Shown: in pieces, positions 2,865-31,219 of the stretch
Numbering within the stretch: the first letter of the stretch is position 1
Layout of the letters: every line of letters begins with the position of its first letter
IMG/VR virus record: IMGVR_UViG_3300043409_001617
Coordinates: 1 to 35,678 of that record
DNA: 35,678 nucleotides
Source of the DNA: a virus
Reading direction: 5' to 3' (one strand)
Program-made: the position numbers and the translations under genes
The notes under the pieces: generated by a model
What the model was told of the DNA's origin: nothing
What the model saw: the letters and a program-made list of their open reading frames with translations, nothing else
Database searches by the model: none

Positions 2865-2947
2865 GTCGCAATAGCGTCGCAACATCCGGTTGCTACTGTT
2901 GCTCGTGTTGCTCCATGCGCTTTGTAGAATCTGTAAGTTACAGATTC
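2865..2947. repeat. Iteron-like repeats and perfect palindrome between int and rep
   Basis: This 160-bp gap (2850..3009) holds several ordered repeats. GTCGCAA occurs at 2865-2871 and 2876-2882, 11 bases apart. Three tandem 9-bp units beginning GTTGCT lie at 2889-2915. A perfect 10+1+10 palindrome lies at 2927-2947. The gap sits between the integrase stop and the replication gene start, so it may be the phage origin, integrase arm sites with attP, an operator, or a mix. I could not identify a tRNA-derived att core. Confidence 0.5.
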
Positions 2948-3009
2948 CAAAGGTGTACCGGGAGTACAATTCCCTCCCTGGCCACCACTTTTATCTTCTT
3001 TATTTCCCA

Positions 3010-4242
3010 TCAGTTCCTGACCTCCTCTTTGTCCCCGTCGCCAACACGTCGCAACTCCAAAACCTGCGCAACCGGATCTTTCGAGAGCGCCTGGCTGACG
3101 ACGGCGTCCAGGTGTTCCTGCCGAGAACGTACCCACGGCGAGTAGTGCTTCTCGGTAATTTTGATGGACGCGTGCCCCAGCAGGCAGGAAACCCGCTCGA
3201 TCGACACGCCCTGGTTCAAGAGCTCCACCGCGAAGGTGTCGCGGAAGCGATGCCACTCGGCGCTCTTCACCCCGGCCTTCGCCGCAAGCCGCACCAGGCG
3301 ATCGCGCCACACGTCCGCGGTGGCCTCCACTGTCGCCACCCCGGCCCAAAACCAATAGGTCCCGTGGCGGAACGGGGTCCGCGCCAGCTGCTCCACCAAA
3401 AACGCCGGCAGCGGCACGTAAACCGGAACGCCGGTCTTCGCCATGTACAAAACCGCGCGCCCGCCCTCCACCTTCTCCGGCGTCAGCATAACCGCGTCGG
3501 AGATCCGCAGCCCGGTGTATCTGGCGACCAAAATCAACGACTTCAGCCGCACTTTGTTTTGCCAGGCAAGTTCGGTCTCGCCCTTCCGGCGTAGCTCACA
3601 CGCCTGCAGTAGCGCCATGACCTCGGATTGCTCATACGGCAGCGTCACCGGCGGGCGTTCCTTCGGCATCGCCAGCCCCTTGGCTGGATTGTTCTTCAGC
3701 CAGCCGTGGGCGATACACCATTTGCACCATGTCCGCAGGCGATCGATCCGCTTCGCGGCCGTGTTGGGCCCGCCCGGCCAGGCCGCGCGGTACTTCTCAA
3801 AAAACTCGAGATCCAGATTCTGGACGAACTTCCGGCCAGCGCCTTCCGCGGCCGTGGCCAGCGGAACGGCGTAACGAGCCGCGCCGCGCTCCCGGGCGGC
3901 GTTGAAGGTCCCCAGGAGCGTCATCCGGTACTTTTTGACCGTCGCCGGCGACATCCCGTCAACCATGAGCTTTGCGATGTATTCCTTGCAGGCGGCCTCC
4001 ACCGGCTTCAGTCGGCTCTCCGGCTCCAGAATCCCGGCTTCTATGTCGCGCAGTTTCTTCGCGGCGACCGTCCAATTCCTGGTCTTCAGCGCGTAGTTCA
4101 GCCGGCGGCCGTCCTGCATGCCGTCAACCCAGATCGGGCAGGAGCACTTCGTGTGTGCGCGGCCCTTCGATGCGTGTTTGCAGCCTGAATCATCGTCGTT
4201 TGCGACGAGGTGGCGGCGATAAATGGTCAACATGAGTCGCAT
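3010..4242 (-). CDS. int: Tyrosine recombinase, phage integrase
   Basis: A 410-aa enzyme that would join phage DNA to the host chromosome and, with an excisionase, cut it out. The N-terminus (about residues 20-45) has Cys/His residues and an arm-binding-like segment, followed by a SAM-like core-binding domain (about 75-185). The catalytic domain carries R246 (GLRISD), K269, H331-x2-R334, H357 (LLGHASI) and the nucleophile Y367 (HYSPW), so the active site looks complete. An alternative ATG lies three codons downstream. It is transcribed in the early operon, directly after the excisionase-like gene with a four-base gap. A repeat-rich region downstream could contain attP. Confidence 0.95.
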   Translation of the reverse strand: MRLMLTIYRRHLVANDDDSGCKHASKGRAHTKCSCPIWVDGMQDGRRLNYALKTRNWTVAAKKLRDIEAGILEPESRLKPVEAACKEYIAKLMVDGMSPATVKKYRMTLLGTFNAARERGAARYAVPLATAAEGAGRKFVQNLDLEFFEKYRAAWPGGPNTAAKRIDRLRTWCKWCIAHGWLKNNPAKGLAMPKERPPVTLPYEQSEVMALLQACELRRKGETELAWQNKVRLKSLILVARYTGLRISDAVMLTPEKVEGGRAVLYMAKTGVPVYVPLPAFLVEQLARTPFRHGTYWFWAGVATVEATADVWRDRLVRLAAKAGVKSAEWHRFRDTFAVELLNQGVSIERVSCLLGHASIKITEKHYSPWVRSRQEHLDAVVSQALSKDPVAQVLELRRVGDGDKEEVRN

Positions 4243-6893: not shown

Positions 6894-9018
<2,125 letters not shown>

Positions 9019-9031
<13 letters not shown>

Positions 9032-9312
9032 ACCGGAACCGCCTCGATGCTCGCCTTCGCCTCCGGCGTCACCGCCAAAATCTCAATGGCCTCCGTGAGA
9101 ACGACGGTGGAGACCGGCTCTGGGAACTTACAGTCTTTCGGCCGAGACGTTCCGGTCTGCGCCAACTGAGAGAGCGATGCCGCGCCCGCCCAATACCAAA
9201 GCCGCCGCGCCCCCGTCATCTCGACTTCTTTCCCTTCGCGCTTCGCCAGCGTTCCGGCGAACACGCCCGCGGAGTAGGTCCGCACAATCACAAACTGTCC
9301 AATCATTTCCAT
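9019..9312 (-). CDS. DUF6948-like conserved phage protein
   Basis: A 97-aa protein with a small beta-domain: IGQFVIVRTYSAGVFAGTL, then ARRLWYWAGAASLSQLA, then a TEAIEIL strand near the end. This pattern matches the DUF6948 family of phage and bacterial proteins of unknown function. The start at 9312 has an AGAGGA site eight bases before it; a second ATG lies two codons later. It overlaps the Gly-X/ParB start by 13 bases. Confidence 0.75.
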
Positions 9313-9329
9313 TCCAATTTCCTCTTTCG

Positions 9330-9554
9330 TTATTTCGAAACTGCAACATAAACCGCATTCACCAACAACCCAAAAAACAGCCCGCCACAAAACCACCGCA
9401 TCCACCCCGCGATTTTCATCTCTGACCGGTACAACGCCGCCCGCTTCCACCGCGCCGCAGAACGCTCCATCTGGCTGGCGTACAGACTTTGATCCCGATA
9501 CGCCTGGCGTAATCGGTGAAGACGATCGTGGCGACGGTGGAATGGCGACGACAT
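9330..9554 (-). CDS. Small membrane protein, 74 aa
   Basis: A basic, Arg-rich helical N-terminus (residues 1-47) is followed by one transmembrane helix at about residues 51-71 (WMRWFCGGLFFGLLVNAVYV). The positive charges before the helix would stay in the cytoplasm. The start overlaps the RusA stop as TGATG. Function unknown. Confidence 0.6.
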   Translation of the reverse strand: MSSPFHRRHDRLHRLRQAYRDQSLYASQMERSAARWKRAALYRSEMKIAGWMRWFCGGLFFGLLVNAVYVAVSK

Positions 9555-10009
9555 CAATTTGATACCTTCTTCGCGCTCTTCCTCGCCGCGCGCGGCGTCT
9601 TTTCCCTCGGACCGATCTGGTCTAGGGTCACCACAATCCGCGGCAGCGCCGGATCCTGCCGAAGGCGAGATCCTTCCCACTGCCGAATCTGCACGTCGTC
9701 CGTCAAAATCCCGACGTCTTCCATCCAATCCGCCACCGCCTGGTAAAAGCCGACGGCGTCCCCAACGTCCGCGTGACGGTAGAACACCGCCCCGCAATTC
9801 ACATCCGCCGCAATCGGCAACCCAAACCCCGCGTCGGCGATCTGCTGCCGGATCAACGGCAGCGACTTCTTCGCGATCTCCGCCCACGTCTCATACGCCT
9901 CGCTGGGAACGTTGAAGGTCCGCTTCTTCCGGAAGCTGTACTTCCGGCGCCCGTGATTTTTCTTCGTCCGCGGCGTGCCGTAAATCGTGAATGTCAGGCC
10001 TTGGATCAC
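9554..10009 (-). CDS. rusA: RusA-family Holliday junction resolvase
   Basis: A 151-aa protein of typical RusA length. It begins with the family strand FTIYGTPRTKKNH, and has the Asp-rich active site pattern HADVGDAVGF followed by ADWMEDVGILTDDVQI. RusA enzymes form dimers that cut four-way DNA junctions arising in recombination or replication, so branched DNA can be packaged. The start is GTG at 10009, sharing GTGA with the stop of the gene upstream; a longer frame to 10150 is glycine low-complexity sequence and was rejected. Confidence 0.9.
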   Translation of the reverse strand: MIQGLTFTIYGTPRTKKNHGRRKYSFRKKRTFNVPSEAYETWAEIAKKSLPLIRQQIADAGFGLPIAADVNCGAVFYRHADVGDAVGFYQAVADWMEDVGILTDDVQIRQWEGSRLRQDPALPRIVVTLDQIGPREKTPRAARKSAKKVSN

Positions 10010-10263
10010 TCCCCGCCCTCCACCGCCGCCGCACGCAACTCCAGCCGAGGCTGGCTCCCCGCCAACTCCGCCTTCCGCGCATCCCGCGCCCGCCACCCCG
10101 CCGCTTCCACCAGGGCCCAGGCCGCCACCGCTTCCAAAATGTCCGGCCATTTACGCCCAAGCACACGCACCACCAGCGCCGTACCCGTGAAGCCCAACAT
10201 CATTACGCACAGAATCGCCAAGCCACTGATTAACAGATCGTGCGCTTGAATCGTGAAAGTCAT
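10006..10263 (-). CDS. Small membrane protein, 85 aa
   Basis: One hydrophobic helix at about residues 10-33 (LLISGLAILCVMMLGFTGTALVV) is followed by a basic/Ala-rich cytoplasmic-type tail. Its ribosome site GGAGG sits right after a terminator hairpin and can pair with a CTCCGG sequence upstream, so translation may be controlled. Function unknown. Confidence 0.65.
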   Translation of the reverse strand: MTFTIQAHDLLISGLAILCVMMLGFTGTALVVRVLGRKWPDILEAVAAWALVEAAGWRARDARKAELAGSQPRLELRAAAVEGGE

Positions 10264-10272
10264 AATCCTCCG

Positions 10273-10302
10273 GAAAAAGTGGGCGAACTTTTCAGTCCGC
10301 CC
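10273..10302 (-). terminator. Intrinsic terminator-like hairpin in early operon leader
   Basis: On the minus strand, GGGCGGAC, loop TGAAAA and GTTCGCCC form an eight-pair stem with one G-U pair, followed by AC and five T. It lies just before the ribosome site of the 85-aa gene. Read-through must be possible, since RusA, ParB and other genes follow. Confidence 0.6.
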
Positions 10303-10308
10303 GGAGTT

Positions 10309-10401
10309 TCACCACAGATCAAGGAGAGGGCGCTTTCGCGCTTGTCGGAGCCACCGCCCAACTCTTCTCACAATCAAAACAGCAGCCCCAAATCCGACCA
10401 C
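10309..10401 (-). CDS. Possible 30-codon Arg-rich leader peptide
   Basis: A GTG-started ORF of 30 codons with six Arg and one Lys, a hydrophobic start and a basic amphipathic end. Its TGA stop lies seven bases before the terminator stem, the spacing expected for ribosome-controlled attenuation. The ribosome site (AAAGG) is too close to the GTG to be good, so expression is doubtful. Confidence 0.25.
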   Translation of the reverse strand: MVGFGAAVLIVRRVGRWLRQARKRPLLDLW

Positions 10402-10515
10402 CCTTTCAAATGTGCGGGTCTCGTTCTGCTGGAAGGCCGGTGGTCATGAATCGTCTGCCGCTCGGCTATTGCCCCACCGGCCCGCCCCTCTGTCTACTTC
10501 ATCGCGCCTCCCTTC

Positions 10516-10650
10516 TTACAGCCACTCGTTCGGACCTTCGTCCTGCTTGTCGCCCTCCACCGAACGCCGCCCATCAACCAGCAACACCAGCGTCGTCAGC
10601 AAAGCGAACATCAGCACGATCACCAAGCCCACAAAAATCGCCGGATGCAT
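10516..10650 (-). CDS. Small membrane protein, 44 aa
   Basis: It has one strong transmembrane helix near the N-terminus (about residues 4-28; IFVGLVIVLMFALLTTLVLLV) and a short charged tail. The ATG coincides with the stop of the preceding gene. Small membrane proteins of this type are frequent in phage early regions. Function unknown. Confidence 0.55.
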   Translation of the reverse strand: MHPAIFVGLVIVLMFALLTTLVLLVDGRRSVEGDKQDEGPNEWL

Positions 10651-10892
10651 CACTGGCACCCCCGGCCAACCATCAAAGTCACTGCCAGCCCGACCACCGC
10701 GGGCACCAAAACCACCAGAGCCCCGGCAAATGCCTTTGTCGCGCTCTTGTGCCGGCGGCGATATCGCTCCACTTCGCATCGCGCCAAATCGCGCTCAATC
10801 ACCAGGCCTTCGATCTTCGCCGCGCTCTCCGCCCGGCCCTCCATGAACGCGATCCGCGTGTCGCGGATGCCATCGATCTGATTAAGCGACAT
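10650..10892 (-). CDS. Helical protein with C-terminal membrane anchor, 80 aa
   Basis: A charged, probably coiled-coil stretch (residues 10-48) is followed by one C-terminal transmembrane helix (about 53-75; FAGALVVLVPAVVGLAVTLMV). The start was set at 10892, inside the end of the upstream gene (11-base overlap), because the longer frame covers that gene. Function unknown. Confidence 0.55.
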   Translation of the reverse strand: MSLNQIDGIRDTRIAFMEGRAESAAKIEGLVIERDLARCEVERYRRRHKSATKAFAGALVVLVPAVVGLAVTLMVGRGCQ

Positions 10893-11223
10893 ACCTCTCC
10901 TTTTGCGCTGCGACTTCATGGGTGCGCAGCACTTCGAAATAGTTGGTTCGAATCGGCGTTCGAAACGACATCGGACCGATCCATACACGCATCCCGTACC
11001 GACCCTCACCCAGCCGGATCAGCTCCGCCCCGGCCGGCACACCGCTCCCGCTCACCGTGATCGACACCTGTCCAGGCTTCGCCCCAAGTTGCCCCCACAT
11101 CGCCGCCGCCATCTTCGGCTGCAGCTCCGTCTCCACCGTTAACCCGTGCGCCGACACCGATACGATCCGCGCCTTAATCCGGATCTCCGCACTCCCAAGA
11201 CCAATTGGCAGAGGTCGATCCAT
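10882..11223 (-). CDS. Hypothetical beta-rich protein, 113 aa
   Basis: The sequence alternates hydrophobic strands (IRIKARIVSVSAHGLTVETEL, VSITVSGSGVPAGAELIRLG), with no signal or membrane helix. It may be a small beta-barrel, possibly OB-like, but I do not recognise the family. It starts two bases after the HTH gene stop, and co-expression is likely. Confidence 0.55.
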   Translation of the reverse strand: MDRPLPIGLGSAEIRIKARIVSVSAHGLTVETELQPKMAAAMWGQLGAKPGQVSITVSGSGVPAGAELIRLGEGRYGMRVWIGPMSFRTPIRTNYFEVLRTHEVAAQKERYVA

Positions 11224-11225
11224 GC

Positions 11226-11444
11226 TCACGCCGCACCATCCCGCTCCAAGATTTCTTTCGCCGCCAACTCCGCGGCTGCTGCGATTCGCGCACTGACAGT
11301 TCGGCCCGACAGCCAAACGCTGATTGCATTAGGCGTCACTCCCAGCCTGCGCGCCAGGGCCGTCTTGCTGCCGAACTGCCGCCCTAAAATACTCCGGATT
11401 TTCTCGCGAGACATCTTCCGAGCCTTCGAAGTGGGTGTGCTCAT
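11226..11444 (-). CDS. Cro/CII-like helix-turn-helix protein, 72 aa
   Basis: The central region (FGSKTALARRLGVTPNAISVWLSGRTV) is a clear helix-turn-helix with a basic N-terminus and an Ala-rich C-terminal helix. It is the second gene of the early operon, a position often held by Cro or a CII-type activator. The start overlaps the upstream stop (ATGA). It probably controls the divergent region at 11645..11732. Confidence 0.7.
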   Translation of the reverse strand: MSTPTSKARKMSREKIRSILGRQFGSKTALARRLGVTPNAISVWLSGRTVSARIAAAAELAAKEILERDGAA

Positions 11445-11644
11445 TTTGTAAGCACCTGGCCCGCCTGCGCTGCCAGCCAGAATAGCCACGCGCTTTCGAC
11501 CAGCTGCGACTGGGTCGGCCGCTTCCCGGTGGCAAGCACAGCACGCGCTTGGTACTCATCGATACTTCGCTTTATGCTCGGCTTCACGCGAATCACGTCA
11601 CTAACGCGCGTCGTGTTACCTTGGTCACTAGGTGATTCCGTCAC
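11441..11644 (-). CDS. Possible ribbon-helix-helix protein, first gene of early operon
   Basis: A 67-aa protein with a short strand and two helices (VIRVKPSIKRSIDEY, then QSQLVESAWLFWLAAQ), which may form a ribbon-helix-helix fold. The start is GTG without a strong ribosome site. It is divergent from the 11733..12062 gene across an 88-base control region with direct repeats, which would suit an autoregulator. Confidence 0.5.
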   Translation of the reverse strand: MTESPSDQGNTTRVSDVIRVKPSIKRSIDEYQARAVLATGKRPTQSQLVESAWLFWLAAQAGQVLTK

Positions 11645-11732
11645 TAAGCCAGGATATCTTGACTCTTGGATATCTTGACAGAGGTTTTCTCCTTATCTCC
11701 GCCGTCGTTTTTTTTCAAACCCTGCCGCTCAA
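11645..11732. promoter_or_regulatory. Divergent early control region with direct repeats
   Basis: Between the leftward early operon and the rightward 11733 gene lie two exact copies of GGATATCTTGAC at 11652-11663 and 11668-11679, a 16-base period. Each contains the palindrome GATATC and ends in TTGAC, the start of a -35-like element. I could not pair either with a good -10 box. The inverted GTGATTCCGTCAC lies just inside the early operon. Binding by one of the adjacent regulators is likely. Confidence 0.5.
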
Positions 11733-12062
11733 ATGGACACAACTAAGTACAAAAGCCTTACCGTCGCCCCAGAACTCCACCTCAAAATTAAGGTCTATGC
11801 CGCAGAACATGGGCTATCAGCAGGTGATCTGGTCGAGAAGGTGTGGGCCGCATACCTCGCAAAGGCAGGACTGCCGCCCCTGCCGACCGCCGAAGTTCCC
11901 GACGCCAAATATCCCTACCGGCCAGAAAACCGCGTCTGGCACGAGCGACTAGAAATGACGCTCAACGACCCCGACGAGGCCCTGGGTATCCAGAAGAACC
12001 TAGAGTGGGCCGAACGCACCGTGCGGGGAAAAACCCAACCTCGAAAGGCAAGTGGGCTGTGA
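11733..12062 (+). CDS. Divergent ribbon-helix-helix-like protein, 109 aa
   Basis: The N-terminal 45 residues fit an Arc/CopG-like fold: a strand (KYKSLTVAPEL) followed by two helices (HLKIKVYAAEHG and SAGDLVEKVWAAYLAKAG). The C-terminal half is charged and Pro-rich. It is the only rightward gene in this part and faces the early operon, the arrangement expected for a lysogenic repressor or antirepressor; that is inference. No good ribosome site precedes the ATG. Confidence 0.55.
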   Translation: MDTTKYKSLTVAPELHLKIKVYAAEHGLSAGDLVEKVWAAYLAKAGLPPLPTAEVPDAKYPYRPENRVWHERLEMTLNDPDEALGIQKNLEWAERTVRGKTQPRKASGL

Positions 12063-12104
12063 CCTCCAACTCGGGCACTCGCTTCTTCACCCGGTAGCGC
12101 GCAC

Positions 12105-12371
12105 TTACCTGCGGTACCTGCCTTTTTCACACCAAAACTTTACTCGTACGCCTGGCTGCGCCTGGAAAAGTGACTGCGCGATCTGGCAGTTCTCCCAGTT
12201 GTAACTATCTCCGTCCGCCGTGTCGAACGTCGCTATGTGGATTCGCATCAGGTTCGTCTCCACGGCCTCGCCATCCACAGCGCTATTCCGGTATAGTGTC
12301 GACGCCCCGCCCGACATCACGGAACCGCAACTGCCCAGCATCATCACGGCACACAGCAAGGTCACCCGCAT
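12105..12371 (-). CDS. Small lipoprotein in lysis region, 88 aa
   Basis: The N-terminal signal sequence ends in a lipobox (LGSC, Cys15), so the protein is probably lipid-anchored in the envelope. The mature part has two further Cys residues and ends very basic. It lies 12 bases after the holin gene, so it may act in lysis, perhaps in place of an outer spanin, though it is not the Pro-rich kind. It could also be a surface-exclusion lipoprotein. Confidence 0.6.
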   Translation of the reverse strand: MRVTLLCAVMMLGSCGSVMSGGASTLYRNSAVDGEAVETNLMRIHIATFDTADGDSYNWENCQIAQSLFQAQPGVRVKFWCEKGRYRR

Positions 12372-12383
12372 TCGGCCATTGTA

Positions 12384-12863
12384 TCAACTGCCTTGATCGA
12401 CCTTCTTGGTTCCCGGCGCCTGGCTGCGTCCGATCGTCTCCCGCGCCTTGGCCAACGCCTGAATAACGAAGCGCGGCAGCGGCATTCCCAACTCGTCTAA
12501 GTTCTCCACCACGCTGATCCACTCGCCCAACCAATACCAGGTACCGAGCACGGTCCCCGCCAGCCCCGCCTTCATCTCGAACATCTCCACCTGCACTCCG
12601 CCTAAATAATGCACCAGCGCGAATGCCAGCCCCTTCACCAGCACTCCGCGCGTGATCGGCCTGGCCCGAATTCCTCCCCGGGTCACCCAGCCACAGGCCA
12701 GTCCTGACCCCAAATCAAAGATGATCGCCCACAGCAGCAAACTCTCCACCGCCGGGAGAGTCGAGTAGAATCCGACCACTGAGGCGGCAACCGCATGCGC
12801 CCACCAAGGGCCATCTATGTTCGGCGCCAGCGCCAGTAATATTGGCTTCATTTTATAGGGCAA
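12384..12863 (-). CDS. Phage holin, toxin-secretion/lysis holin family
   Basis: About 159 aa with several hydrophobic segments: AHAVAASVVGFY, LLLWAIIFDLGSGLACGWV, LVKGLAFALVHYL and GTVLGTWYWLGEWISVVENL. The FDLGSGL motif, basic loop and the C-terminal ENLDELGMPLPRFV pattern match the holin_4-type family (PF05105). It would make holes in the inner membrane to time lysis. Start choice: TTG at 12863 has GGAGG eight bases upstream; ATG 12851 and an open frame to 12920 are alternatives. Confidence 0.8.
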   Translation of the reverse strand: MPYKMKPILLALAPNIDGPWWAHAVAASVVGFYSTLPAVESLLLWAIIFDLGSGLACGWVTRGGIRARPITRGVLVKGLAFALVHYLGGVQVEMFEMKAGLAGTVLGTWYWLGEWISVVENLDELGMPLPRFVIQALAKARETIGRSQAPGTKKVDQGS

Positions 12864-12898
12864 AGGCTGATCCTCCAAACCGGCTTCATTCGCAGAAA

Positions 12899-13015
12899 TC
12901 ACACAAACCTCATTAACCACAGCAGGCAGAGGACGACACAGCCGAGTAACCCGGCCGCGCAGAAGTCAGGCAGCACGCCGCGGAGCCAGTTTCGCCAGCC
13001 CCGCGGCCATTCCAT
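12899..13015 (-). CDS. Possible small membrane protein, 38 aa
   Basis: ATG 13015 opens a 38-codon frame with an amphipathic Trp/Arg start (MEWPRGWRNWLRG) and one transmembrane helix (about residues 16-35). It lies directly upstream of the holin and could be a second holin or anti-holin. No clear ribosome site is seen, and the upstream sequence is the 323-bp repeat, so confidence is low. Confidence 0.35.
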   Translation of the reverse strand: MEWPRGWRNWLRGVLPDFCAAGLLGCVVLCLLWLMRFV

Positions 13016-13053
13016 GCAGTTGGAATTGTTTTTGCAATACCCTCGTTTTTGTC

Positions 13054-13082
13054 TTGACAGTAATCTATGGTTAGTTTATAGT
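13054..13082 (+). promoter_or_regulatory. Strong sigma70-type promoter of the 66-aa gene (copy 1)
   Basis: TTGACA at 13054-13059 and TATAGT at 13077-13082 are separated by 17 bases, a six-of-six and a five-of-six match. Two imperfect copies of an eight-base motif, TATGGTTA (13066-13073) and TATAGTTA (13077-13084), lie 11 bases apart over the -10 box and could be an operator. Confidence 0.85.
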
Positions 13083-13099
13083 TAAAGCAGGAGAAAACC

Positions 13100-13300
13100 A
13101 TGACCACTATCACCCACAACTCAACCACCGTCCGCACGACCGCCCGCGTCGGCGACATCATGACCAAGCGGCAAGCCTTGAGCCTCATCAAACGCCTGCG
13201 GGCGAAGCGCGACGCCATCACTACCGACTTTTCGGACGGCCACCAGGTCTACCACTCGATTGGCGGCAGCGATAACTGCTGGATACTCCGCAAGTCGTAA
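13100..13300 (+). CDS. 66-aa hypothetical protein, own promoter (moron-like)
   Basis: I do not recognise the protein. It starts Thr-rich, has a basic helix (residues 21-38; MTKRQALSLIKRLRAKRD) and ends with a beta-type stretch (HQVYHSIGG, then NCWILRKS). AGGAG lies six bases before the ATG, and a strong promoter precedes it. A single small gene with its own promoter, placed between oppositely transcribed operons and present twice, looks like a moron: a gene expressed from the prophage, often to change the host or exclude other phages. That role is inferred. Confidence 0.75.
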   Translation: MTTITHNSTTVRTTARVGDIMTKRQALSLIKRLRAKRDAITTDFSDGHQVYHSIGGSDNCWILRKS

Positions 13301-13349
13301 CCCCACCCTCAACGCCACCGGGCGGCGTGAAGCCCGCAGAAACACGTAC

Positions 13350-13763
13350 CTATTGCCGGATGATGCCGGCGGCTTTTAATTCGGCGATCACCACTTCCGG
13401 CGACAGCGCCAGTTCGGTCAGATCCGACTGCAGCGTCACCTGCGGATACAACGGTTTCGCAAACACTACCGTATCCACCCAGTAGCTGCCGCCCGGGTAG
13501 CCAATCTGTTCGGATTTAAACGTCGGCTTTGGCGCGCCGGCGGCCGCGAGCATCGCCAAAGCTGCACTTACGGCCGCGTTTGGTAAGTTGATCCGAGTAC
13601 CCTTAGGAACACCCAACTTCCGCTCCGCGTTCGTTCGGTACTCCATAAACTTCTCGAACGGTGTCTTTCTCTCATCTTCCGCATCTCGCCTGACCTGGTC
13701 CATGGCGTCTTGACCGCTGTTCAGCTTGGCGATCTGGTCAGGTACTCCAATTTGCTCTGGCAT
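13350..13763 (-). CDS. Hypothetical protein at end of virion operon, 137 aa
   Basis: The helical, charged N-terminal half (residues 1-50) is followed by an Ala-rich helix (about 63-76) and a beta-type piece (GGSYWVDTVVF). No known domain was recognised. It is the last gene of the late operon, nine bases after the large ejection-type protein, so it may be a virion or assembly protein. It converges on the 66-aa gene. Confidence 0.6.
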   Translation of the reverse strand: MPEQIGVPDQIAKLNSGQDAMDQVRRDAEDERKTPFEKFMEYRTNAERKLGVPKGTRINLPNAAVSAALAMLAAAGAPKPTFKSEQIGYPGGSYWVDTVVFAKPLYPQVTLQSDLTELALSPEVVIAELKAAGIIRQ

Positions 13764-27859: not shown

Positions 27860-28512
27860 TGTGTAGCCCCCGCGGGCGCCTCGCCCAGAACGATCTGATT
27901 CAGGTTAGTGATGGCCGCTTTCGACTCGGCCGCCGCGGCGGCCGATTCCGGAGTCAGCGTGCGGCCGTACTCCGACGCCAGATCCGCAGCCAGCGCAAAG
28001 CGAAGCGCCCGCTCGTAGCCCGGCGGAAGCGTCACGCTATCCGTGAGCGCAGCAAATGTCGCCAGCGGCTTGTAGCTGTACAGCAACAGCGAACCGCCCG
28101 TTGTCGGCGCCGGCCACAAATACATCGTGCCAATCGGGTAAGCAGAGTCCCAGTACAGCACGTCGGCGAATTTGCCGGTGCGGCCTTGGTCGACAATCCC
28201 CGCCCACTCCTCCGCACTCACAACGCGTACCGACTGCTCAACAGACGACTGCACCACCGCCGCTGACTTGATCCGCTGCGGACGCGTCGTGTTCCAGGTC
28301 TGGCCCGTGCCGATGGTGTAGCTGGCCGCACCAGTCAACGAGAACGTCTCGCGCGTCACCTGGTAGATAGGCATTCCCAACGCAGACCAGGATTCGATGA
28401 TCCCGTTGAGCGCCGTGAGCCCGTCGTTGGACTCTTCCGTCGACGGCGATTCCCCGCTGGCAATCACGCCCAGCGTCCGCAGCGCTGCATTGACCAATTG
28501 CTGTACTGTCAT
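27856..28512 (-). CDS. P22 gp4-like tail accessory / head completion protein (copy 1)
   Basis: 218 aa, with the same plan as the 234-aa neighbour: TVQQLVNAALRTLGVIASGE, a LNGIIESWSALG helix, then ETFSLTGAASYTIG, and LPPGYERALRFALAADLASEYG. The start has no gap from the small protein upstream. P22 has one gp4, so two adjacent relatives suggest a subdivided connector stack or specialised roles. Which copy is the true gp4 equivalent is not clear. Confidence 0.8.
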   Translation of the reverse strand: MTVQQLVNAALRTLGVIASGESPSTEESNDGLTALNGIIESWSALGMPIYQVTRETFSLTGAASYTIGTGQTWNTTRPQRIKSAAVVQSSVEQSVRVVSAEEWAGIVDQGRTGKFADVLYWDSAYPIGTMYLWPAPTTGGSLLLYSYKPLATFAALTDSVTLPPGYERALRFALAADLASEYGRTLTPESAAAAAESKAAITNLNQIVLGEAPAGATQ

Positions 28513-28709
28513 TTCCGTTTCCTCGTTTTCTCGGGCGCATCACCCGGGCCAGGAACGACCATTTTGCTGACGCCGGGAAAATGGGTCGCCTGCTCAGCAA
28601 ACGCTGCGGGCGTCTCCGCCCACTCCGCGCCGAGAGCAGACTCTTCGTCGGGATCCTGCACCAGCCGGGCGGCCTCGGTGCGGTGGTACAGCCATTTTGG
28701 ATAGTGCAT
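28509..28709 (-). CDS. Small virion-operon protein, 66 aa
   Basis: It starts with YPKWLYHRTEAARLV and contains EWAETPAAFAEQA, a pattern seen in short proteins that follow the coat gene in many podoviruses; the function is not known to me. The tail is basic. Ribosome site TGGAG. It overlaps the gp4-like gene by four bases and follows a terminator. Confidence 0.6.
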   Translation of the reverse strand: MHYPKWLYHRTEAARLVQDPDEESALGAEWAETPAAFAEQATHFPGVSKMVVPGPGDAPEKTRKRK

Positions 28710-28754: not shown

Positions 28755-29969
28755 CTAGCTGGCGACGCGGCAGGCCCATTCGGGCTTTCGAGCGGCCCAG
28801 CCGTACATAATGTCGGCGCGGGTGATGAACTTGTCGTTCGTCACGTCGTACGCCGACACCATGCGAATCGACATGCCCGTTTCGGGGTCCGTCACGGCTT
28901 TCGCCATGTGGACGCCCTGCGGCACCTGCAACGGCGCCATCGCAAAGCAAAATGCTTCCTTATGGAAGGCAATGCCCTGCGGGCTTACGGCCGCCGCCGC
29001 ACCCAACACCGTGATGGCTGCATTATCGGCGGGCGACGCCGTAACCGTCTTGTACGCGCCCGTTGCGGTGATGGCCGGGTAGATCGGGATGGTGGCGTTG
29101 CCGCTGCCGTCGGACGATACGTCAGCCGTGACAACGAACTGCTGCAGCGATCCGGTCGAGTCGCCCGACACGCGGTTGACGCTGTTGACACCAGCGATGG
29201 TGAACACGTCGCCCTTCTTGAGACGCGACGCAGCAGCAGCAGTCCAGCCGTCAGTGATCAAGCTGGTACCGGTCTGCGAAGCACCATTCACCAGCGGAGT
29301 GCCGCCCAGCGGGCCAACGGTGTGGGTGCGGATGTTCTGGTCCATGTACCACTTGAACCCGGCCGCCTGGCCCATCGAGCCCTTCTTGTACTGCTTGTCG
29401 ATCTCGCTGGAAGACTGGAACAGCCCCTTCAGCGCATCAACGATGGTGGACTGCATCCCCGGGTTGATGACGACATGACGCTCGTCGTCCACGGGCGCGC
29501 TGTTCTCGCTGATCTTCTGACCCGCCTGCAGGTAGGTCAAAATGGCGTTCGGCACCGTGGCGGGCGTGCCGACTGCGTTGGCGGTGGACTGGTAGGCCAT
29601 CGTCAGCCCATCGACATCGACGGTGTTGGCGAGGGCAACGGCCGCGCTGTTGAGGTAGCGATCGGCGAAGCGGTCGATCGACAGCGTGAGGTCTTTGCTG
29701 GTGAACTCGAAAGCGACGTGCTTCTGCGTGTTGATGACCAGGTCGACGCTGGTTTCGGTGACATCCTGCGCCGACAGCGTTGCGCCGTTCGACGCCGTGA
29801 ACTGCACCGGGCGGCGCAACTTCAACGTGTCGCCGATTCTCGCGCCGTTCTGCGCAAACCGGTCGTCGTACTCGTGCGAAACATTGCTGGTGAACACCAA
29901 GTTGTTCTTGAACCGCATCAAAAGCTCATTGGTGATAATCGTGGGGGTCAGAATCGTATTCGTTGGCAT
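28755..29969 (-). CDS. Major coat protein, P22 gp5-like
   Basis: 404 aa against 430 for P22 coat. The N-terminal arm (ITNELLMRFKNNLVFTSNVS) and the DTLKLRRPVQF strand match the P22 coat family (PF11651), as does the DLTLSIDRFADRYL helix. The HK97-type fold is expected, with a Gly/Thr-rich insertion in the middle and an A-domain rich in Ala and Gly near the end. It builds the T=7 shell with the scaffold just upstream. The start follows the scaffold stop by three bases. Confidence 0.85.
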   Translation of the reverse strand: MPTNTILTPTIITNELLMRFKNNLVFTSNVSHEYDDRFAQNGARIGDTLKLRRPVQFTASNGATLSAQDVTETSVDLVINTQKHVAFEFTSKDLTLSIDRFADRYLNSAAVALANTVDVDGLTMAYQSTANAVGTPATVPNAILTYLQAGQKISENSAPVDDERHVVINPGMQSTIVDALKGLFQSSSEIDKQYKKGSMGQAAGFKWYMDQNIRTHTVGPLGGTPLVNGASQTGTSLITDGWTAAAASRLKKGDVFTIAGVNSVNRVSGDSTGSLQQFVVTADVSSDGSGNATIPIYPAITATGAYKTVTASPADNAAITVLGAAAAVSPQGIAFHKEAFCFAMAPLQVPQGVHMAKAVTDPETGMSIRMVSAYDVTNDKFITRADIMYGWAARKPEWACRVAS

Positions 29970-29972
29970 TGG

Positions 29973-30857
29973 CTACCTCCGTAGCTGTTGTTTCCGAGCC
30001 CGCTCCCATGCCGTGAAATCGTTCGCAAAGTTGTCGTCGAGAATGTTCGGCGACACCTTTAATGCGGCCGTCACGGGCCGAATGGGCTCAGGCGCGCGCG
30101 TTACGCGCGGTTGGGGTTGGGGTTTCGGTTGCGCCGGCGCGGCCAGAGTGGCCTCGATGCGCCCCAGTTCGCGCGCTGCTGCAATGGGCGGCAGCTGCGC
30201 GATTCGTTCTGCTTCTTTGGGGTTCGACCCTAGCCAGTAGGCCAGGTCTGGACCCGCTTCCGATTCGAGGATCACGGCGCGCATGGCGTCGCTGACCGGC
30301 ACCTCGTCCGAAAACGCTACGTCGGCGAAATCCGCGTATTTTGCGGCGGCCGCCTTCGCTCGCTCCTGAAACGATCGGGTGAGGTTCTCTTCCTGCTGTT
30401 GCTGCTGGTAGCGCGCCAGAGCCTGCTGCTCCATCGCGATCCGCTGCTCGAGCTTCTGGTCCGTCTTCCAGTCGGCCAGCGCTTCGACGTAGGCGTCGTA
30501 GTCATCGAATTGCTCTGCCCGCGGACGCTGCACCGTCGTCTGCTCGGGCTCCTGCTGGCGCGCAGCGGGTTGCCCGCCAGTCGCCTCCAAAGCCTGCAGA
30601 CGCGCCTGCAACTCGTAGTTGGTCCGCGTCAGCCGGTCAATCCGCCGCTGGAATCCACCCCTCCCTTTTCGGGGGGAGTCATCCTGATCGTCTTCTCCCG
30701 TTTCCGATTCGGGAGCGGTTTCGGCCGGCGGGGCTTCCGCGGCCTCGGATGAAGTCTCTGCGGCCTGGTCGCCTGCGCGCCAGGATGCGTACTGCTGAAA
30801 GTCCTCTGGCGCCTGGACAGACGAGTCTGCCGGCGCCGTTTGTACTGCGTCGCTCAT
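29973..30857 (-). CDS. Scaffolding protein
   Basis: 294 aa, nearly the length of P22 gp8 (303 aa). It is acidic at the start (Ala/Glu-rich, residues 1-60), with a long coiled coil in the middle, including a Gln run (RYQQQQQEENLTRSFQERAK). The C-terminus is basic (FTAWERARKQQLRR) and would bind the coat N-arm. Scaffold proteins guide procapsid assembly and then leave. The gene sits between portal and coat. A possible promoter lies upstream. Confidence 0.8.
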   Translation of the reverse strand: MSDAVQTAPADSSVQAPEDFQQYASWRAGDQAAETSSEAAEAPPAETAPESETGEDDQDDSPRKGRGGFQRRIDRLTRTNYELQARLQALEATGGQPAARQQEPEQTTVQRPRAEQFDDYDAYVEALADWKTDQKLEQRIAMEQQALARYQQQQQEENLTRSFQERAKAAAAKYADFADVAFSDEVPVSDAMRAVILESEAGPDLAYWLGSNPKEAERIAQLPPIAAARELGRIEATLAAPAQPKPQPQPRVTRAPEPIRPVTAALKVSPNILDDNFANDFTAWERARKQQLRR

Positions 30858-30951: not shown

Positions 30952-30980
30952 GTTAAAGAGAAGGTGTCTATGAAGTTCAA
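30952..30980 (-). promoter_or_regulatory. Possible leftward promoter before the scaffold gene
   Basis: TTGAAC and TTTAAC, each four of six to the consensus, are 17 bases apart. They lie in the 119-base gap between the 80-aa gene and scaffold, the largest gap in the late operon. Weak evidence. Confidence 0.3.
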
Positions 30981-31219
30981 TTGTATGCCGCCTCCATTCG
31001 GTCTTGTGTAATCGGAACGGGCTTCTTTTTGTTAGCCGCTGCCAGTCCCGCAGCCTCAGTTAACCCTGTCGTTTCCGCCTGCTTTGCGCGCCGCTCCTGC
31101 TGCATCCCTTCCAGCCACTGCGATGTCTGCGCAGCCTGAGCCTGCTGCGGATCCATAGCCATATACCGATGCATCAACGCCGACGGGACGTACGGCTTCC
31201 GCTGACCCTTATCCGCCAT
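30977..31219 (-). CDS. Small virion-operon protein, 80 aa
   Basis: A charged, Gln/Ala/Lys-rich helical protein with no recognised domain. It is located between portal and scaffold and overlaps the portal stop by 11 bases. It may be a small head or assembly factor, or a non-structural linker. Confidence 0.55.
   Translation of the reverse strand: MADKGQRKPYVPSALMHRYMAMDPQQAQAAQTSQWLEGMQQERRAKQAETTGLTEAAGLAAANKKKPVPITQDRMEAAYN

Follow-up and report, generated by a model that had tools for sequence, protein, structure and literature searches.

The antitermination RNAs of lambda (nut) and HK022 (put) form small hairpins in the early phage transcript. Phage transcripts can also carry ordinary intrinsic terminators, and one of these, lambda tR2, is repressed in E. 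coli when placed beside a stop codon and reaches an efficiency of ~0.9 beyond ~30 bp (PMC4824070, in extract). IsrK of the Gifsy-1 prophage has its own promoter and gives a stable terminated RNA, and two alternative folds have been tested; part of the transcripts pass the terminator into a translationally inactive mRNA of the IsrK/orf45-anrP locus (PMC4825925, in extract). The same extract describes the CI RNA and seqA-seqC immunity of P4, where an untranslated structured segment lies in the early phage transcript.

We have analyzed a gap between two genes of an early phage operon. By the window we mean the whole of the DNA studied, which comes from a virus record and is 35,678 bases long. The gap carries small hairpins, as do the nut and put RNAs. 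It resembles terminators of the tR2 type, as presented in the extract of PMC4824070, in having a GC-rich hairpin and U-run after an untranslated stretch between same-strand genes; it differs in that the U-run is short and offset by two bases, and that termination in the gap is predicted. Among the systems we have compared, and so far as the extract of PMC4825925 describes it, the nearest prophage arrangement is IsrK/orf45-anrP. Both have a terminator, a probable one in the gap, before a small ORF, with a structured start region in the read-through mRNA. In contrast to IsrK as described there, the gap has no visible promoter, and its two pairings coexist. The reading that we favor, with a probability of about one half, is that the gap element acts as an intrinsic (Rho-independent) terminator of the ordinary kind, which would probably be partial or leaky and follows an untranslated spacer in the early minus-strand operon.

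The phage and the setting of the gap

The window is 62.7% GC, and nearly all of its genes lie on the minus strand. It encodes a portal protein like that of P22, along with a terminase, and a ParB-domain protein, an integrase and a Cro/YdaS-like regulator are also recognized. From these genes we therefore take the window to be a tailed and apparently temperate phage. The gene list is a mechanical call from codon usage and Shine-Dalgarno (SD) sequences, not a curated one, and the smallest ORFs in it should be treated as uncertain. The key features are summarized in Table 1.

The gap lies on the minus strand with exactly the 252-base extent given in the original prediction, and minus-strand genes continue on both sides of it. 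It had been described as a divide between regulatory and membrane genes on one side and RusA, ParB and integrase genes on the other. The labels ParB and integrase are supported. That of RusA is not: the product of the gene had no Pfam match up to E = 5, a search of the window with the RusA family model was empty up to E = 1, and none of the 14 matches to the PDB up to E = 10 is RusA. The label may still hold as that of a distant relative.

Table 1. Position and properties of the features of the early gap, its flanking genes and a second site in the late cluster
Feature	Position	Strand	Remarks
Untranslated gap, early operon	10264..10515	minus	non-coding in six frames; longest gap of early run; fold z = −2.67
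Upstream 44-aa hydrophobic (membrane-type) ORF	10516-10650	minus	stop codon adjoins gap
9-bp perfect stem GGCCGGTGG/CCACCGGCC, 30-nt loop with inner hairpin	10482-10474 + 10443-10435	minus	
GCGC-GAAA-GCGC hairpin, GNRA-type loop	10341-10330	minus	read from sequence
CTCCGG, complement of next SD	10306-10301	minus	last two bases also in terminator stem
Terminator-like hairpin: GAAA loop, 9-bp stem including one G-U pair	10302-10281	minus	−15.4 kcal/mol
T-run, five T, two bases past stem	10278-10274	minus	
CCGGAGG, SD of 85-aa ORF	10267..10273	minus	3 nt before ATG
Downstream 85-aa membrane-type ORF, hydrophobic stretch	10006-10263	minus	no relatives found
Second hairpin and T-run GGAGGGGCGGGGAGACTCGCCCCTTT, then CTCTGGAG and ATG of 66-aa ORF 28509-28709	28748-28725	minus	

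A number of other features were seen among the surrounding genes. At 8580-9031 (minus strand) the frame of the ParB ORF remains open upstream, with ~150 residues of Gly/Ser/Asp/Tyr repeats that may be translated. A gap of 160 nt immediately downstream of the ORF for the integrase (3010-4242) is AT-richer (49% GC) and holds the hairpin TGGAATCTGTAACTTACAGATTCTA (2925-2949, minus strand), possibly an attachment-site or recombination feature. GGATATCTTGAC occurs as two exact copies 16 nt apart (11652-11679), in the region that separates two divergent ORFs, 11441-11644 on the minus strand and 11733-12062 on the plus strand. This is likely the operator and early promoter region; the plus-strand ORF has a weak HicB-like match, below the cut-off. 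On the plus strand, TTGACA-17-TATAGT at 13054-13082 matches a promoter at 11 of 12 positions, and a 66-aa ORF with an AGGAG site (13100-13300, plus) starts shortly after it.

Coding potential and folding of the gap

At 252 nt the gap is the longest in the minus-strand run below 11.6 kb, followed by gaps of 221 and 160 nt. Using a codon model trained on the long minus-strand ORFs, its six frames score −0.29 to −0.65 bits/codon, compared with +0.10 to +0.44 for nine neighboring ORFs in frame. The gap is non-coding in all six frames. Two candidate hidden genes were rejected on the negative scores: a 30-aa GTG ORF (10309-10401), and the mini-ORF ATG-AAG-TAG (10502-10494). In the window the pattern of this mini-ORF and its SD occurs once; shuffled sequences contain it 1.4 times on average, and 149 of 200 have it at least once.

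On the minus strand the fold of the gap has an energy of −103.4 kcal/mol (z = −2.67), and just 2 of 200 shuffles are as stable. A larger shuffle control gave z = −2.59 and 4 of 300. When set against same-length windows of the minus strand, the gap fold has z = −3.21, with 3 of 197 as low. There is no such signal on the plus strand of the gap (z = −0.37; 70/200 shuffles). The gap therefore folds moderately better than chance. Two blocks account for the signal: 10432-10490, with the 9-bp stem and its inner hairpin (1/300 shuffles as stable), and 10264-10350 at the 3′ end (7/300). The middle (10316-10410) folds at the level of chance (48/300). These counts are optimistic because the segments were chosen after the folds were known.

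The original prediction contained a 9-bp stem with an inner hairpin, and this is indeed present (10435..10482); shuffling the gap 300 times also gave a perfect stem of at least nine pairs in 18 cases. The GNRA-type hairpin was likewise correctly identified, though it has just 4 bp. It recurs in the computed folds of the gap.

It is possible, if somewhat unlikely, that the gap is a spacer with no regulatory role, left over when a mosaic phage was rearranged or lost a gene, and that its hairpins are of the kind that form readily at 63% GC. The modest size of the folding excess and the frequency of the 9-bp stem in shuffles would be consistent with this, and the GGAGG-CGCG-ATG AAG TAG that follows the upstream gene could be the start of a lost gene, though it occurs at chance level. 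Yet genes are tightly spaced in phage genomes and no gap of the early run is longer than this one, two separate blocks within it fold better than their shuffles, and no coding relic is visible.

A terminator-like hairpin before the next gene

The predicted terminator-like hairpin with its T-tract was found, with the sequence GGGCGGACT-GAAA-AGTTCGCCC followed by ACTTTTT (10302-10274). It is stable and GC-rich, as expected of an intrinsic terminator. Neither strand of the window has another site that combines a stem of 8 or more pairs with 5 or more T. When the whole window is shuffled, such sites number 0.25 on average, and 21 of 100 shuffles have at least one. That an equally clean terminator arises at this frequency is also what a spacer without function would allow. 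Scored by energy and weighted T content, the site ranks 190th of 841 hairpins in this GC-rich window, in part because the T-run begins two bases past the stem. The offset and the presence of just five T count against the terminator, as do the shuffles. In its favor it is the only site of its kind, it lies in a non-coding gap and on the transcribed strand, and no promoter that would restart transcription is seen. From its sequence, the view that the gap ends in an intrinsic-terminator-like hairpin before the next gene is supported, with a modest statistical excess.

The hairpin is separated from the preceding stop codon by 213 nt. Given the effect of spacing on tR2 in the extract of PMC4824070, an untranslated spacer in this position therefore suits a working terminator, provided that the rule extends to the host of this phage, as we infer. 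No sigma-70-like promoter was found on the minus strand of the gap, the best in a relaxed scan being 7/12. In a check for Rho rut character the transcribed strand was G-rich (C 0.23, G 0.36), with one 78-nt stretch of C/G 1.3.

The favored reading would operate as follows. Transcription would begin upstream of the genes for the regulators, near 11.6 kb, and pass through the small regulator and membrane genes. Because the following ~210 bases are untranslated, ribosomes would no longer be close behind the polymerase at the 9-bp hairpin and T-run. A fraction of the polymerases would stop there, giving high expression of the upstream control genes and low expression of the downstream 85-aa, ParB and integrase genes. 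In the mRNA made by read-through the next SD would lie just past the hairpin, and be weakly paired.

A similar site occurs in the late cluster. Within a 45-nt gap that follows ORF 28755-29969, a strong hairpin, a T-run and an SD are in the same order (28748-28710) as in the early gap. The segment 28700-28770 is not very unusual in its folding alone (z = −1.77; 14/300 shuffles). From gene order ORF 28755-29969 is likely to be the major capsid gene, and the hairpin is probably a terminator after it. The repetition of this arrangement in the late cluster therefore favors general operon punctuation over an immunity element. The lowest z of any 252-nt window on the minus strand, −5.83 (40 shuffles), was found at 28801-29052, within the 3′ part of the same ORF.

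Possible regulation of the probable terminator

Attenuation or antitermination control at the gap is possible but unlikely. The terminator might work by attenuation or be acted upon by phage antitermination, and so gate the ParB/integrase half of the operon, as at the early terminators of lambda. The hairpin stands between control genes and DNA genes in the early operon and has a structured domain upstream, and in one fold the U-run CACUUUUU also pairs with AAAGGGUG (10406-10399). However, such a pairing would form only once the terminator had been transcribed, and the best folds contain no competing antiterminator stem; in these the terminator and the SD mask discussed below coexist. No antiterminator gene was recognized among the proteins scanned. 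We have also looked for boxA, using the lambda consensus, from which the boxA of the host could differ. At up to 3 mismatches there is no boxA-like match in the gap, and in the window there are 44 against 44.03 expected by chance. A lambda-type nut site, where boxA precedes a small boxB hairpin, was rejected on these results. The gap thus differs from lambda nut and HK022 put in having no boxA-like motif, and in being far from the presumed promoter. Taken together we regard a regulated terminator as unlikely.

Elsewhere in the window, TTCTCTTTAAC (30952-30962, minus strand) is one mismatch from this boxA consensus, in a 119-nt gap between ORFs 29973-30857 and 30977-31219.

The probable terminator and the ribosome-binding site

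The complementarity between CTCCGG and CCGGAG (10273-10268), which contains the SD of the 85-aa ORF, was verified. It had been argued that the terminator stem and the masking pair share bases, and are hence alternatives. Two bases (10302-10301) are indeed shared, but the exclusivity does not follow. The minimum-energy fold contains all 9 pairs of the terminator together with four mask pairs (CTCC:GGAG), at −20.0 kcal/mol; the terminator alone has −16.9 kcal/mol and the 6-bp mask alone −9.1 kcal/mol. Because the best fold keeps both, the terminator and the mask are predicted to be additive, not exclusive. In an attenuator a terminator and an alternative fold are mutually exclusive, and the proposed SD mask does not provide such a pair.

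The start region of the 85-aa ORF has a mean unpaired probability of 0.51, placing it 30th of the 48 starts when counted from the most buried. The SD is therefore not notably masked, and the claim of a masked ribosome site is not upheld. This bears upon the idea of translational control, in which CTCC:GGAG on top of the terminator stem would lower initiation at the 85-aa ORF in the read-through mRNA, an effect that an RNA or a protein might lift, as for IsrK/orf45. The 6-nt complement lies 33 nt upstream of the SD, and an exact complement of this length is found upstream of the SD region at just 4 of the 48 starts; four of its pairs are present in the best fold. Yet these add just ~3 kcal/mol, and the start is no more buried than the median. 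We consider control of this kind highly improbable. Scarcely more probable is a phage-specific combination of the two, where the domain at 10482-10435 or a bound factor would set read-through into the ParB/integrase half, and an SD held on the terminator stem would tune transcription and translation of the next gene together.

Known RNAs and the search for relatives

No Rfam 15 family matches the window at gathering scores, and for the region 10200-10600 the best were just E = 1 and 6.6, on the plus strand. A scan for tRNA and tmRNA found none. The suggestion of a new phage attenuator is thus unsupported: the supposed alternatives coexist in one fold, the SD is about as accessible as at other starts, and there is no Rfam match.

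An immunity RNA had also been proposed. RNA of the P4 kind would pair with other parts of the early transcript, and the position of the gap, within the early operon of a phage that appears temperate from its integrase, is all that points this way. We searched for exact complements of at least 10 nt between the gap and the minus-strand transcript at 8500-10263 and 10516-13400, and for inverted repeats that link the gap to any other part of 9300-13400; there were none of either. The candidate was therefore rejected at this stringency. The gap resembles the P4 CI RNA and seqA-seqC system, as described in the extract of PMC4825925, as an untranslated structured segment of an early phage transcript, and differs in that no complementary partner sites were found. 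We regard an immunity RNA as most improbable of all.

A leader homologous to the gap was found neither in viral_contigs, genome_contigs and the portal-bearing records, nor by BLAST of phages and plasmids. Scans of viral_contigs with the 85-aa, ParB, RusA-like, XRE, 688-aa and 80-aa proteins gave no relatives in any of the six, and a degenerate pattern of the terminator had no matches there. The portal protein gave hundreds of relatives in viral_contigs, from which 80 loci were kept. The best of the 80 (92% identity; whole record L083, locus L002) shares late genes alone with the window. ParB was found in none of the 40 of these 80 records that were scanned. When the early DNA was compared with 50 of the 80 records, seven had matches at E ≤ 0.01, and all nine of the matches listed (20-41 nt) are within the RusA-like gene, with none in the gap. 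The terminase-like protein found a single distant locus in genome_contigs. With 9000-12000 as the BLAST query, nothing matched among 50,697 phage records, and the gap itself had just short, insignificant matches among phages and plasmids (E = 0.3 and 4).

Significance

Reading the gap element as an intrinsic terminator opens no new class of RNA. Regulated termination, if demonstrated, would make it a new attenuation element; for the early region of this phage we have found no close relative. If it terminates as proposed, it marks a boundary between two levels of expression within the early operon of this apparently temperate phage, whose portal is P22-like, and this would aid the annotation of the phage.
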